NCBI GenBank assembly: GCA_000233775.1
Contig: CP003096.1
Location: forward strand, 1,204,501 to 1,268,500
DNA length: 64,000 nt
Direction of reading: 5' to 3'
Source of the DNA: Thermovirga lienii DSM 17291
GTDB taxonomy: Bacteria; Synergistota; Synergistia; Synergistales; Thermovirgaceae
The notes below the pieces were generated by a model. That model had not been told where the DNA came from. It was given only the letters and a program-made list of their open reading frames with translations, and ran no database searches. Both the position numbers and the translations under genes were made by a program. Positions 21,526 through 48,077 of this stretch are shown in pieces (position 1 is the first letter of the stretch; each line of letters opens with the position of its first letter).

Positions 21526-21858
21526 AAAAGAGCTCGTCCCTGTCAGGGACGAGCTCTTTTGCCCGCGGTACCACCCTTTTTGCCTTTTCGAGGCCCCTCA
21601 CGGTCTTTTAAACCGTTTTGTCCCTACTTGGCCTAAGCCTTTCTTCGGGACCGGCTCAGGGGCTCTCTTCAGTCGGTTTCGTCAAGGAACGCTCTCAGCC
21701 TAGACATCCCCTCTCTGTTGACGAGCATCCGACTTACTCTTCCCCATCATCGCCGCATATTCCACCGCAGCTGTGAAAGAGTACCGGCGTCTTATTCGTC
21801 TAGCTCGTCTTATTCGGTTCTGCCACATATCTAGCGCTCCCTTTGTATCTTTGAAATT
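21526..21858 (-). promoter_or_regulatory. T-box riboswitch leader of argG
   Basis: This fills the 439-base gap between argG and surE. On the minus strand the T-box core AAGGGTGGTACCGCGG (21578-21563) is followed by a perfect intrinsic terminator, arms around 21526-21560, and a T-run. Upstream is GATGGGGAAGAGTA (about 21748-21735), the usual stem I start. Stem I arms AGTCGG and CCGACT and the inner arms CGTCAA and TTGACG pair. The specifier codon could not be read with certainty; arginine or aspartate would make sense for argG. About 100 extra 5' bases, with GAATAAGACG twice, precede stem I. Confidence 0.93.
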
Positions 21859-42303: not shown

Positions 42304-42672
42304 TTACCTTCTTCCTAATAAATTGTCCAAAAAATCCAAATCCAAAAATGCGTAATCCTCTGGTTTATTGGCCTTTATTTTATTCCATTCTTCAATGTGA
42401 CAAGAAAGCTTATCCAAAGCATTTTGAAGAAGTACTAAATCATAACTTCTTGTCTGTGCATACCCCTCGAATTCAACAACTACCGTTCGGTAGGGACTTT
42501 TAAACAAAGAGACATTAGGTGGCAGGGGTAAGCTGAAAAGATGGTAACCATTCATTACATACTCCATGGCTTTCCTCAGTACGTCGGAGGGCATTCCTTC
42601 TACTTTGATTACTTCATCAGGGTATTTCTCCACCACAAGGGGATTATTGGTTATCAAAATCTTATGACCCAT
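42304..42672 (-). CDS. grdX: GrdX-like protein
   Basis: A 122-aa protein starting MGHKILITNNPLVVEKYPDE; ATG has GGAG 8 bases upstream. The ITNNPLV opening and the middle segment PYRTVVVEFEG resemble GrdX, a small protein of unknown function found in glycine/betaine reductase clusters. It lies about 130 bases after grdB on the same strand, beyond a hairpin, and is followed closely by the BcsB-like gene. Assignment by similarity from memory and by context. Confidence 0.75.
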   Translation of the reverse strand: MGHKILITNNPLVVEKYPDEVIKVEGMPSDVLRKAMEYVMNGYHLFSLPLPPNVSLFKSPYRTVVVEFEGYAQTRSYDLVLLQNALDKLSCHIEEWNKIKANKPEDYAFLDLDFLDNLLGRR

Positions 42673-42733
42673 CAATCATGCTCCATTCTGCGAAATGGTA
42701 AATTAGTAGCTTTCATTATACATCTACAATTAT

Positions 42734-42770
42734 GGGGGAGGGACAACAAAAATTCCAGCTTCCCTCCCCC
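42734..42770 (-). terminator. Hairpin after grdB
   Basis: GGGGGAGGGA (42734-42743) pairs with TCCCTCCCCC (42761-42770) in the grdB-grdX gap. There is no T-run. It may attenuate transcription into grdX. Confidence 0.65.
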
Positions 42771-42801: not shown

Positions 42802-44115
42802 CTATTTATTGAAAATGGTTTGTTCCTTTATTTCAGTCTGTATAGCCTTGAGGGCCCGTTCAAGGAGCTGGCGCCTCACCATTTTATCGACCTCTTCACC
42901 TTTATCTGGGGCTCCAACTGGATGAGGTATTGCTACACCAGGCACTATCCTATTGGCACCCACGGTCAACATTATGGGAACAATCGTTGCTATCTGGACC
43001 ACTGGAATGCCAGCTGCAGCCTCGATTTCTCTTGCCATCGATGCACCGCATCGCGTGCAGGTTCCTCAGGTAGATGTAAGAATTACGGCATCCACTCCTG
43101 CTTTTTTGAGCTCCTCACCTATTTCCTCACCAAACCTCTCAGCATTGGCTACAGAAGTTCCCGTACCCGTTGTGGTGTAAACGTAATCATACAACTTCCC
43201 GAAAACTCCTTCTTTCTCCAGCTGGCGCATTACGTCCACTGGCAGCACCACGTCAGGATCCTCGTTAGCCCATACCCTATCGTAGCCCCCGTGTATAGAT
43301 TCGAATATTTCAGGAGTGAGGTCATCTATGCCCGAAATATCATACCGTCCGTAGCTTTCTGCTGATGAAACCCTTATCTTATCAGGGTTTCCTTTAGGAA
43401 CTATTCCACCGGAAGACACAAGAGCTATCGTTGCTTTCCTAATGTCCTTCACCGGTTTTGCAGGGGGAACCCTCTTAAATACCGGCATCTCGTACTCCGT
43501 CTTGAAAGGTTCACCCTTCAACTTCTTCAACAGCATGTCCACGGCCCTTTTCGCTCCATTTTCCTCGTAGAAGAAATTCTTCCTTACACCCCTGTGGAAG
43601 TACCCCTCTTCCTCAGCAGGTCCCATCTCTTGTTTTTTCAACAATTTAAGGCCTAGCCTTGCCATGTTTTCTAGCGCTTCCTTCATCCCCCTGGCGCTGT
43701 CGGCAGTCTTGACTATAAACGTCTTAGTAGAATAAAGTTCCACACCGGGGTTTTCACAGTACATCCCTGTAACTGTAGGAATCCCTAATAGCTCACCTGT
43801 AATTGCGCATATATCACCACATGCTACTCCATATCTTCCTGCATTGAACGCTGGTCCAGCTATTAACAAATCTGGAGAGAAGCTCTTTATTAGTTCCATA
43901 CACTTCTCTCGTGCGGCTTCCATATTCTCCCCATAATAACTGTCACCGCAAACTACTGTCCCCACAACTTGGGCGTCTTCCCCCAAAAGAGAGTTTATTT
44001 GAGCCGCAGGGCCTATGGGTTCCCCCTTGGCAAAGGGCTCCTGATGAGCTGCCTCTTCTCCACCCATTCCAGCAAAAAACTGGTTTATATAACATACCAC
44101 TCTGTAAGCCACCAC
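42802..44115 (-). CDS. grdB: Glycine/sarcosine/betaine reductase component B, selenoprotein subunit
   Basis: The selenoprotein subunit of component B, which takes an amine substrate and transfers a carboxymethyl group to the GrdA selenoprotein. The frame is interrupted by TGA at 43068-43066 and continues in phase to 42802. The context reads ILTST, then selenocysteine, then GTCTRCGASMAREIE, the known GrdB active site with CxxC following. GTG 44115 (GGAGGTGA upstream) gives 437 residues with selenocysteine at about 350, the family size. ATG 44127 is an alternative start. It could equally be GrdF (sarcosine) or GrdH (betaine). Confidence 0.93.
43042..43068 (-). promoter_or_regulatory. Selenocysteine UGA codon with candidate SECIS hairpin
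   Basis: Minus strand: UGA at 43068-43066, then six bases, then TGCAC (43059-43055), an 8-base loop GCGATGCG, and GTGCA (43046-43042). A short perfect hairpin just after the UGA is the bacterial SECIS layout. Confidence 0.8.
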
Positions 44116-44127
44116 ATTCACCTCCAT

Positions 44128-45414
44128 TTAAACCCATCGGGCCCCTATGGAGCCAAATCCTAATTCGCTAGTCGAGCCTATGATGGCTTGGAGCTCCACG
44201 TACATAGACCCATCCTCTCTTAAACTCTCCTCCGCTCCACCGGACAAGTTTTCTATAGCTTCTGAATATCCTATAACCTTATCCATCGGCGGCAACTCGA
44301 CCATCTCGTTGACATTACCTGTGGATACGAAGGCATCCATTTCCGGAGTAACGTCTGCCAAGCCTTGGCTCTTGCCGTCAGTGCCAGCCGCTTCATCGGA
44401 GATGATAACTGTCTTTATACCCAGTTTCTCGCAAACTTTCGCATTCATACATAGATCAGTATCAGGATTACCGTAACCCTCCTCAGAGATCACCACCCCA
44501 TCAGCACCCAGCATTTTGGCAAGCTTGGCATTGAACCACGCTGCGCGCTCCTTTCCAGCTAGCCTGGTATCCTCAATGGTTGGAATTACCCCTAGGAAAT
44601 TAAGGTCTTTCCCGTGACGACTATATAGTTCCTTCACTATGGGATCATTCTGATGATGATACGTAGTATTTTTATCGCACGCTGAAACACAGTTTCCAGA
44701 GACCATTGCCCCGTCAAATTTCTCATTGGGATGTATCAAAGTGGGTACTATGTGTTTCATGTCAGCACCGTAAAGGTAGGTATCATGCAATAATCCTTGG
44801 GTTATGGACATACAAAAATAAACCACCTTGGGAAGGTTTGGATATTTGGCATTTTCTTCGTCCAAACTACCTTTCTCATAAACCCTAACATTATCAGGTT
44901 GTGCGTTTCTACATTTATCTGCCAGGTAGTATGCCAACTTCAATCCCGCAATCCTTAAAGCTTCCTCATATTCATGTTTATCCAGTCCTTCCTTGGGCTT
45001 TGCTATCATAACTACATTGTTTGTGCGGGAAAAAGGAGTGTACATAGCCCCAGGTCCTGACATGTCTATTAGGCCCTCCTGAAAAGCTACTATTGGTCCA
45101 CACGTTACAACTGCAGCTCCTTTAAGAACCAGAGTGGCCCCTTCTCCTACTGTTTCCATGCCTCCAATGAAGCCTGGAAAAACCTCTCCTCTTCCCTCCA
45201 ACTTGCAGCGAGGCTCCACGACATCCTTGACCGGTATTATCCTAACGCTCTCGCCCGGCCGGGCCAGATCCAACTCCACAGAGTCAAAGCGAGGATCGTT
45301 GGCAACATAATCAATGGCTTCATCTTTATTAACGAACAATACACCATCGTTGACCTCGGTCTTTTCACCCCACTTTACGTCCGCAATCGAAACCTCTCTT
45401 AGCTCCAGCCTCAC
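44128..45414 (-). CDS. grdE: Glycine/sarcosine/betaine reductase component B, pro-protein subunit (GrdE type)
   Basis: A 428-aa pro-protein that is cleaved to give two subunits, one capped with a pyruvoyl-type carbonyl that forms a Schiff base with the amine substrate. The expected cleavage is N241-C242 in SGNCVSACDKNTTYHHQN; Cys242 is at the same number as I recall for characterised GrdE. Its stop lies directly before grdB. GrdG and GrdI are close relatives, so the substrate is unresolved. A divergent regulator lies upstream. Confidence 0.92.
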   Translation of the reverse strand: MRLELREVSIADVKWGEKTEVNDGVLFVNKDEAIDYVANDPRFDSVELDLARPGESVRIIPVKDVVEPRCKLEGRGEVFPGFIGGMETVGEGATLVLKGAAVVTCGPIVAFQEGLIDMSGPGAMYTPFSRTNNVVMIAKPKEGLDKHEYEEALRIAGLKLAYYLADKCRNAQPDNVRVYEKGSLDEENAKYPNLPKVVYFCMSITQGLLHDTYLYGADMKHIVPTLIHPNEKFDGAMVSGNCVSACDKNTTYHHQNDPIVKELYSRHGKDLNFLGVIPTIEDTRLAGKERAAWFNAKLAKMLGADGVVISEEGYGNPDTDLCMNAKVCEKLGIKTVIISDEAAGTDGKSQGLADVTPEMDAFVSTGNVNEMVELPPMDKVIGYSEAIENLSGGAEESLREDGSMYVELQAIIGSTSELGFGSIGARWV

Positions 45415-45523
45415 ATTGGTATCCCCCTTCTTGATTTTGTAGGCTTTTTTAAAAGTATATATTCATAAAGCTTATTTGTTATTGGTAGATTGAACTAAAA
45501 ACCCCTCCCACATATTTTATTTT

Positions 45524-45543
45524 TGTGCTATTGCACATATAAT
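45524..45543 (+). promoter_or_regulatory. -10 element and palindromic operator of the PucR/CdaR-like gene
   Basis: TATAAT at 45538-45543 is directly preceded by the perfect inverted repeat TGTGC-TATT-GCACA (45524-45537). A protein bound there would block the promoter. The grdE promoter must lie in the same 150-base gap. No strong -35 is seen. Confidence 0.6.
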
Positions 45544-45567
45544 TTTAGTCGAAAGAAGGTGATTACT

Positions 45568-46743
45568 TTGTTGGAAAGGTTTGCTCAAATCATATGTGAG
45601 ACCACATGGAAGATTATTGGCTATGAGGTAATAATCACCGACCCAAAAGCAGTAATCATTGGCTCCAGCAACCCAGAGAGGATAGGAACAATACATCAAC
45701 CATCGATTGAAGCCATGAAGTTAAAGCAAGAAATTTTCACAGATGAAATTGAGGCCACGAATTGGCCAGGGGTCAAACCTGGAGTTACATTGCCCATCTC
45801 TTTGGGAGGAGAAGTCGTAGGATCCATAGCCATAGCGGGAAATCACAAGGAAGTTGCTAAATACGGGCATTTAGTTCAAAAACACGCAGAGATATTCCTT
45901 CATGAACAAGTCCTCACCGAATCTAGCCTTGCAAGGGAAAGGGCCTTAAGTGATTTGGTATCTCTTTTGGCGTCTTTCAGACCATCAGAAGACGATCCTT
46001 CGGTGATACTTGTTAGAGGAAAGGAGCTTGGCTTCAACTTAAATAAACCAAGGATATGCCTGGCCATAGAATTGAACAACCCTAACACAGGGGAAACGGG
46101 GGAAATGGTCACGTTTAACACTGTAAGAAACACGATACTGCCCATCCTACGAAACGAATTCAATGATCCGGAGGATATAGTGGCTCACATAGGGGAGGTG
46201 CGCTTCTCTGTGATAAAAAGCCTCCCTTCCAGGATAGTTGAAGATCCCAAAACGATGCAAGACAAATTCATTGAAGCTTATCAAGCTCTGCAGAGAAACC
46301 TCGACAAGTATTCATACAAGGTTTACGTTGGAATAGGAAATCTTGCCAAGGGAGTGGAAGCCCTTCACGAATCATATAAAAACTCATGGAAAGCCATAAA
46401 CATAGCCTCCGACAAAGCCTTAGGCATATATTCCATTGGCAGCTATAGGATCGAAGAACTCCTGTCTACTGTGAATAAAAGCGATGCCAAGAGCTTCGTA
46501 TCCCAAACCCTAGGCGATCTAGAAAAGCTAAGTGATTGGAATGAGATAAGAAGAACCTTTATGGCCTGGATAGAAAATCCATTCAACCCCAGGATAGTAT
46601 CCAAGAAACTCAACATCCACAGGAACACACTGAATTACAGGCTGGACAAGATAAAGAAGACATCCCACCTGAATCCCCGAAATTTTAAAGATGCTTTCTG
46701 TTTGTTTTTGGCTATAACCATGCAGTCCAACAAAAACATATAA
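45568..46743 (+). CDS. PucR/CdaR-family transcriptional regulator
   Basis: The N-terminal about 135 residues resemble the sugar-diacid-recognition (CdaR) ligand domain (AQIICETTWKIIGYEVIITDP, ASPs in a PAS-like fold). The middle is GGDEF-like in layout. The C-terminus carries the PucR helix-turn-helix, FNPRIVSKKLNIHRNTLNYRL. I place the start at TTG 45568, after AAGGTGA at 5-base spacing (391 aa); an ATG 15 codons upstream is open but has no site. It is divergent from grdEB and is the probable regulator of that operon, sensing an unknown small molecule. Confidence 0.85.
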   Translation: MLERFAQIICETTWKIIGYEVIITDPKAVIIGSSNPERIGTIHQPSIEAMKLKQEIFTDEIEATNWPGVKPGVTLPISLGGEVVGSIAIAGNHKEVAKYGHLVQKHAEIFLHEQVLTESSLARERALSDLVSLLASFRPSEDDPSVILVRGKELGFNLNKPRICLAIELNNPNTGETGEMVTFNTVRNTILPILRNEFNDPEDIVAHIGEVRFSVIKSLPSRIVEDPKTMQDKFIEAYQALQRNLDKYSYKVYVGIGNLAKGVEALHESYKNSWKAINIASDKALGIYSIGSYRIEELLSTVNKSDAKSFVSQTLGDLEKLSDWNEIRRTFMAWIENPFNPRIVSKKLNIHRNTLNYRLDKIKKTSHLNPRNFKDAFCLFLAITMQSNKNI

Positions 46744-46799: not shown

Positions 46800-48077
46800 A
46801 TGCCGGATTACGCAGATTTTCTTTTCAAATTAAGAAATAAAAAAATCCTAGGAGTGAACCCTCCCGTCAGAGACTTTGCCTTCTTTGATCTCTGGGCAAA
46901 ACCCTTGGGTCTTTTGTACCTTCTAGATGAACTTAGAACTTTAGGTAACCATGTAGAGCTCATCGATTGCATCTTTGAGGCAAAAGACAAGCCAAAGAGA
47001 TTCGGAAGATATATACCCAGAAAAACACTAATTCCTAAACCTGATGTATACAAAGCAGTTCCCAGAAAATATTATCATTTTGGACTCAATGAAGATGAAT
47101 TTGCAAAAAGACTGAAGGAAACGGAAAAACCCGATTTAGTCTTAGTTACCTCTGTAATGACCTATTGGTACCCCGGTGTGATATGGGCCATAAAACTTAT
47201 CAAAAAAATATTCCCCCACACACCTGTACTGCTAGGGGGCATCTATCCCAGGTTGTGCTCAACTCACGCAAAGCTCTCCGGGGCGGACATGATTCAAACT
47301 CAACCTTTATTCTTAAAGTTCGAAAAACCTGCAATGGACCTATATACAAATCCCCATTATGGGGTAACCCTTACCTCTATAGGATGCCCCTTAAGGTGCA
47401 ATTACTGCGCCTCTTCGATACTCTGGCCTGAACACAGAAAAAGAAACATACAAAAGATAATAAAAGAAATACAGTGGCAGTTGAGCTTGGGCAACATAGA
47501 AGATGTGGCATTCTATGATGATGCGCTTCTGGTAGGCAAGAAAGAGCACTTCTATCCCCTTTGTGATAACCTAATAAGCGACCTACCCCCGTTAAGGTAC
47601 CACACTCCTAATGGACTTCACGTAAAACTCATTGATAAAACCTGTGCTCGCTACCTGAAAAAAACTGGTTTTAAAACCATAAGACTGAGCCTGGAAGGTA
47701 TAGATGAAAACACACTACGAGCAAGTTCTTACAAAGCTGACGAAGTGTCCTTCGCTCAAGCAGTAGAAAACTTATTGGAAGCCGGGTTTACCAGAGAGGA
47801 GTTAGAAACGTACATACTCATCGGAGTACCTGGACAAACACTAGGTGATATAGAGAAAACTATCGCTTTTGCACATTCGCTGGGGGTGAAGGTTAAGACT
47901 GCTCAATTTTCGCCCATTCCTGGCACACCACTGTTTGAGAAAGCATCAGACATGGAACCCCAAATAAGGAAGGAACCTTTATTACACAATAATACTGTAT
48001 TCTGCACATATGTATCCAAACTCATGACCCCGGAAGAACTCCAATACATAAAAAACTTAGCTCACAATAGCATTTAA
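46800..48077 (+). CDS. B12-binding-type radical SAM protein
   Basis: A 425-aa protein. An N-terminal Rossmann-like cobalamin-binding-type region (about 15-150; PVLLGGIYPRLC) is followed by the radical SAM motif CPLRCNYC (three Cys) and the TIM-barrel strands ending LIGVPGQT. No Shine-Dalgarno site precedes ATG 46800. Instead TATATT (46788-46793) lies 6 bases upstream with an AAGACA at 17-base spacing, so the mRNA may be leaderless. The function is not recognised. The DxHxxG-type B12 motif is not obvious. Confidence 0.78.
   Translation: MPDYADFLFKLRNKKILGVNPPVRDFAFFDLWAKPLGLLYLLDELRTLGNHVELIDCIFEAKDKPKRFGRYIPRKTLIPKPDVYKAVPRKYYHFGLNEDEFAKRLKETEKPDLVLVTSVMTYWYPGVIWAIKLIKKIFPHTPVLLGGIYPRLCSTHAKLSGADMIQTQPLFLKFEKPAMDLYTNPHYGVTLTSIGCPLRCNYCASSILWPEHRKRNIQKIIKEIQWQLSLGNIEDVAFYDDALLVGKKEHFYPLCDNLISDLPPLRYHTPNGLHVKLIDKTCARYLKKTGFKTIRLSLEGIDENTLRASSYKADEVSFAQAVENLLEAGFTREELETYILIGVPGQTLGDIEKTIAFAHSLGVKVKTAQFSPIPGTPLFEKASDMEPQIRKEPLLHNNTVFCTYVSKLMTPEELQYIKNLAHNSI

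Follow-up and report, generated by a model that had tools for sequence, protein, structure and literature searches.

Descriptions of selenocysteine (Sec) in GrdB go back to 1995 (Kreimer and Andreesen, as cited in PMC9312934). The described pairs closest to the locus studied here are GrdB/GrdE, for glycine, GrdF/GrdG, for sarcosine, GrdH/GrdI, for betaine, and FarB/FarE, for fluoroacetate. The phylum Synergistota is known to be rich in selenoproteins (PMC5029168), and eight such Sec-containing GrdB genes have been predicted in one of its members, Cloacibacillus porcorum (PMC10838667). The FarB/FarE pair of this bacterium is a protein B thought to share GrdA and GrdC, in which FarB lacks the CxxC and FarE lacks cysteines (PMC10838667). 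The hairpin that marks a UGA for Sec, the bacterial SECIS, is expected to carry a small loop with G in its first two positions on a stem of 4-16 bp, at 16-37 nt from the UGA (PMC13188914).

In this study, we analyzed a 64-kb stretch of Thermovirga lienii DNA, referred to as the window. We found that a gene on its minus strand almost certainly codes for a Sec-containing beta subunit of a glycine-reductase-type protein B, whose UGA is predicted to be decoded through a SECIS (Table 1). This confirms a Sec call made from the raw sequence. The finding is correct but ordinary, as the product belongs to a known kind of selenoprotein. What remains of value is the substrate of the protein B clade to which it belongs (at least 62% identity), which is present in about 46 of the 151 Synergistota genomes sampled, roughly a third.

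Table 1. Features of the reductase locus (positions in the window).
Feature	Positions	Strand	Evidence
GrdX family protein, usual companion of grd operons	42304..42675	-	NF038093, 72 bits (cut-off 40)
GrdB/GrdF-family beta subunit of a glycine/sarcosine/betaine-type protein B	42802..44115	-	Pfam PF07355, TIGR01918, TIGR01917, NF040794
Bacterial SECIS, stem CGAUGC / loop GGU / stem GCAUCG	43028..43065	-	Rfam RF01990 SECIS_4, covariation
In-frame TGA read as Sec, the U of UxxCxxC, residue 350 from GTG 44115	43066..43068	-	sequence, relatives
Alpha subunit, GrdE/GrdG-type proprotein of the same protein B	44128..45414	-	PF09338, 684 bits; NF040793 GrdG; alignment
Divergent CdaR/PucR-type regulator	45523..46743	+	PF05651 Diacid_rec, PF13556 HTH_30

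The reading frame runs from GTG 44115 (or 44112) to the TAG at 42804-42802. Its sole interruption is the TGA, with ILTST before it and GTCTRCG after it, exactly as the first-pass annotation had described. Beyond the TGA the frame stays open for 87 codons, and this stretch was open in only 177 of 20,000 base shuffles. Read through, the gene gives a protein of 436-438 amino acids of the GrdB family. The PF07355 (GRDB) match, with 555.8 bits, reaches as far as the residue preceding Sec; the NCBIfam models that span the whole of selenoprotein B match the beta subunit on both sides of the UGA. It had also been anticipated that automatic annotation would split such a gene or call it a pseudogene. 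This holds for a plain ORF caller, which ends the gene at the TGA (43066-44127, 353 amino acids), but not for curated annotation, which now reads such genes through; grdF of Peptoclostridium acidaminophilum, for instance, is annotated as a single 1,311-nt CDS. Translation probably starts at one of the two GTG codons. Both are preceded by a GGAGG at 44125-44121, with which the ATG at 44127 overlaps, and the GTG at 44112 agrees with the MAYRVV start of the paralogue. Solved structures offered no sequence match to the reductase protein, and scans for promoters and terminators remained at chance level.

The genome searched (two contigs, 1,999,646 bases, 99.96% complete) contains three genes of the GrdB type, and each of them has an in-frame TGA. 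The first, at C1:1357334-1358635, is the grdB of a canonical operon of the order grdX-grdE-grdA-grdB-grdC-grdD, which has an AgcS-type amino acid carrier nearby. The second lies in a betaine cluster that also includes a grdA and a BCCT transporter for glycine betaine. The third belongs to the window pair, which is followed downstream by GrdX and accompanied by a CdaR-type regulator in divergent orientation. Hence, the name grdB initially given to the window gene was right as to the family and too specific beyond it, since there is a third protein B, of which the product is the beta subunit (GrdB/F type), and the glycine-operon grdB lies elsewhere.

The window pair shares with the canonical GrdB/GrdE of the genome the family, the length, a Sec in UxxCxxC, SECIS_4 and a nearby GrdX, at 60% (beta) and 62% (alpha) identity. 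However, it falls into a separate clade, its cluster holds no grdA, grdC or grdD of its own (several relatives do have grdA there), its regulator is of the CdaR type, and its SECIS stem carries A-U instead of U-A. GrdF/GrdG of P. acidaminophilum resemble it in the same Sec site and the NC...C motif of the alpha subunit, with a beta subunit 58% identical, and one copy there is likewise an orphan pair with GrdX; they differ in clade and in having a sigma-54 type regulator where the window has CdaR. The family and the Sec site are also shared with GrdH/GrdI, the window protein being 47% identical to the genome's own betaine copy, but the N-C...C motif is missing from betaine alpha subunits and no BCCT transporter adjoins the window pair. 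Unlike FarB/FarE, the window pair keeps both the CxxC and the cysteines, and the FarE model gives 221 bits, with a cut-off of 675. In the tree, the window clade stands apart from the glycine clade, from P. acidaminophilum GrdF and from the betaine clade (support 98/93), and the glycine-type copies among the matches listed show about 56-61% identity. The beta subunit narrowly passes the cut-off of TIGR01917, the GrdB glycine reductase model (617.5 against 602 bits), yet this is not diagnostic of the substrate, because the GrdF model and TIGR01918 (629 bits) score higher and the tree separates the operon copies. Two of the genomes, G072 and G135, hold nine and eight GrdB-family matches, respectively, so that protein B types are greatly expanded there.

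The alpha subunit has the conserved cysteines for pyruvoyl formation and keeps NCVSAC, an N-C...C proprotein motif that aligns with the glycine and sarcosine copies and is absent from the betaine copies. The retention of this motif and of UxxCxxC in the beta subunit points to an amine substrate, which may be sarcosine, glycine or a related amine. That the substrate is sarcosine, and the pair GrdGF proper, is plausible if on the whole somewhat doubtful. GrdF is the best-scoring NCBIfam model for the beta subunit, the order grdX-grdG-grdF without an adjacent grdA in P. acidaminophilum is comparable, and a sarcosine protein B is reported from the Synergistota bacterium C. porcorum (PMC10838667). 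Nevertheless, both subunits stay below the curated cut-offs, with 641 against 800 bits for GrdF (NF040794) and 571 against 780 bits for GrdG (NF040793), and the genome's own glycine GrdB reaches a higher score (705) on the GrdF model. Moreover, the tree places P. acidaminophilum GrdF outside the window clade, and no gene for sarcosine transport or demethylation adjoins the window pair.

It is also conceivable, though short of probable, that the substrate of the same selenoprotein is none of glycine, sarcosine and betaine, but another small amine that the divergent CdaR-type regulator senses. Such a substrate would fit a separate, conserved clade that coexists with glycine and betaine protein B in one genome, as well as a divergent Diacid_rec regulator that is conserved in relatives, and new substrates have a precedent within the phylum, the FarEB fluoroacetate system (PMC10838667). 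On the other hand, the neighboring genes name no substrate, and the active-site motifs (UxxCxxC, NC...C) are canonical, unlike those of FarEB. We also put forward, tentatively and as a rather unlikely proposition, that the Synergistota clade to which this pair belongs constitutes a further biochemical type of protein B, with another small amine as substrate and control by a CdaR-type regulator; the present lineage would borrow GrdA, GrdC and GrdD from elsewhere in the genome.

The reading of the in-frame TGA as Sec is supported by homology, by an Rfam SECIS with covariation, by conservation of the TGA throughout the phylum and by a complete sel machinery. In a search of 151 Synergistota genomes, the TGA was kept in every GrdB-family match among those listed. 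Compared with the closest relative (L038), differences fall mostly on the third codon position on both sides of the TGA, the counts at positions 1, 2 and 3 being 35, 18 and 190 upstream and 11, 2 and 49 downstream; this concentration indicates that the part downstream of the TGA is under protein selection. There is next to no chance that the gene is a pseudogene whose TGA reflects a sequencing error or a genuine nonsense mutation. In one genome, a lone stop within an open frame would indeed look no different, but relatives and paralogues, independent assemblies included, carry TGA at the same codon, the downstream region is under selection, the SECIS covaries, and conservation across the phylum refutes this reading. 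A reassigned genetic code was likewise rejected, as TGA terminates ordinary genes in this genome. The extra TAA seen in the glycine copies of three genomes (G066, G072 and G135) is apparently a normal stop placed about two residues earlier, and not a second recoding event.

The hairpin noticed after the TGA in the first pass was borne out by a search of the entire window against all Rfam families, which returned SECIS_4 with 40.6 bits (gathering threshold 38). The match begins at the base directly 3' of the TGA and has a 3-nt loop starting with GG, a 6-bp stem and 18 nt between UGA and loop, all within the bacterial SECIS limits. An isolated stretch of 51 nt folds no better than its shuffles (z -0.32), and the structure of lowest energy predicted for it differs from the SECIS. 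As single-sequence folding was uninformative, we relied on covariation, leaving L070 out of the counts. All six pairs of the upper stem are formed in 32 of 32 distinct relatives (100% paired), whereas slid stem registers reach at most about 70%. Among these relatives, pair 15/25 occurs as UA, AU, GU or CG, and pair 13/27 as CG or AU. Changes on both sides of a pair amount to 19 cells against a shuffled mean of 7.6, and none of 500 shuffles was as high.

Most glycine, sarcosine and betaine copies read CGU UGC GGN GCA ACG (Arg-Cys-Gly-Ala-Thr) and have U-A in the stem, whereas the window clade, with CGA or CGG UGC GGN GCA UCG (Arg-Cys-Gly-Ala-Ser), has A-U in the window copy. The stem is preserved because the synonymous Arg change CGU to CGA and the replacement of Thr ACG by Ser UCG occur together, a clean case of SECIS pairing and protein sequence changing together. 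This compensated exchange can explain why the window copy barely exceeds the gathering threshold, when the paralogues score 57.5 and 61.8. The A-U version typical of the window clade (CGATGC/GCATCG) was also observed in a glycine-clade GrdB, L114 (G049 C16), which suggests that the exchange arose more than once.

SelA, SelB, SelC and SelD, predicted from the Sec call, all have genes in the genome. selA adjoins selB, selC is a tRNA-Sec with a UCA anticodon, and selD itself carries an in-frame TGA (TSG-U-AAK; L013 1501-2433, which is C1:54102-55034 of the genome). Thus, selD is itself predicted to encode a selenoprotein, one on which its own production depends. Two grdA genes, both with an in-frame TGA, as well as grdC and grdD are present. 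Among named relatives, a Thermovirga MAG comes closest, with 88% identity.

With the gene, its UGA, the SECIS, the machinery and the partner genes observed, we infer that Sec is actually inserted: SelB with Sec-tRNA (UCA anticodon) would bind the SECIS just 3' of the UGA, and the chain would not be ended there. By analogy with the known glycine reductase mechanism, the beta subunit and the alpha subunit, encoded just upstream, may bind a small substrate of the amine type via a carbonyl group, after which the Sec selenolate would attack the carbon adjoining the amine. The carboxymethyl group would then be handed on to GrdA, a selenoprotein, and, through GrdC/D, yield acetyl phosphate and finally ATP. 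GrdA, GrdC and GrdD would be shared from elsewhere in the genome.

The PF09338 alpha and PF07355 beta genes adjoin, the pairing of a protein B. We sampled 20 neighborhood regions and read the gene order in all but six of these. GrdX lies downstream of the pair in many sampled relatives. The regulator family occurs in most of the regions and is divergent beside the pair in the relatives parsed; in the window, the CdaR/PucR-type gene is the probable regulator of the reductase pair. A B12-binding radical SAM protein is encoded beyond this regulator (46800-48077, plus strand) and recurs at this position in several relatives. In the gap that separates the reductase gene from grdX, an inverted repeat, GGGGGAGGGA ... 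TCCCTCCCCC, G-rich and C-rich with a loop of about 17 nt (42736-42770, minus strand), possibly forms an intercistronic hairpin setting relative expression. Elsewhere in the window, a T-box leader (Rfam RF00230, 96.2 bits) lies at 21542-21759 on the minus strand.
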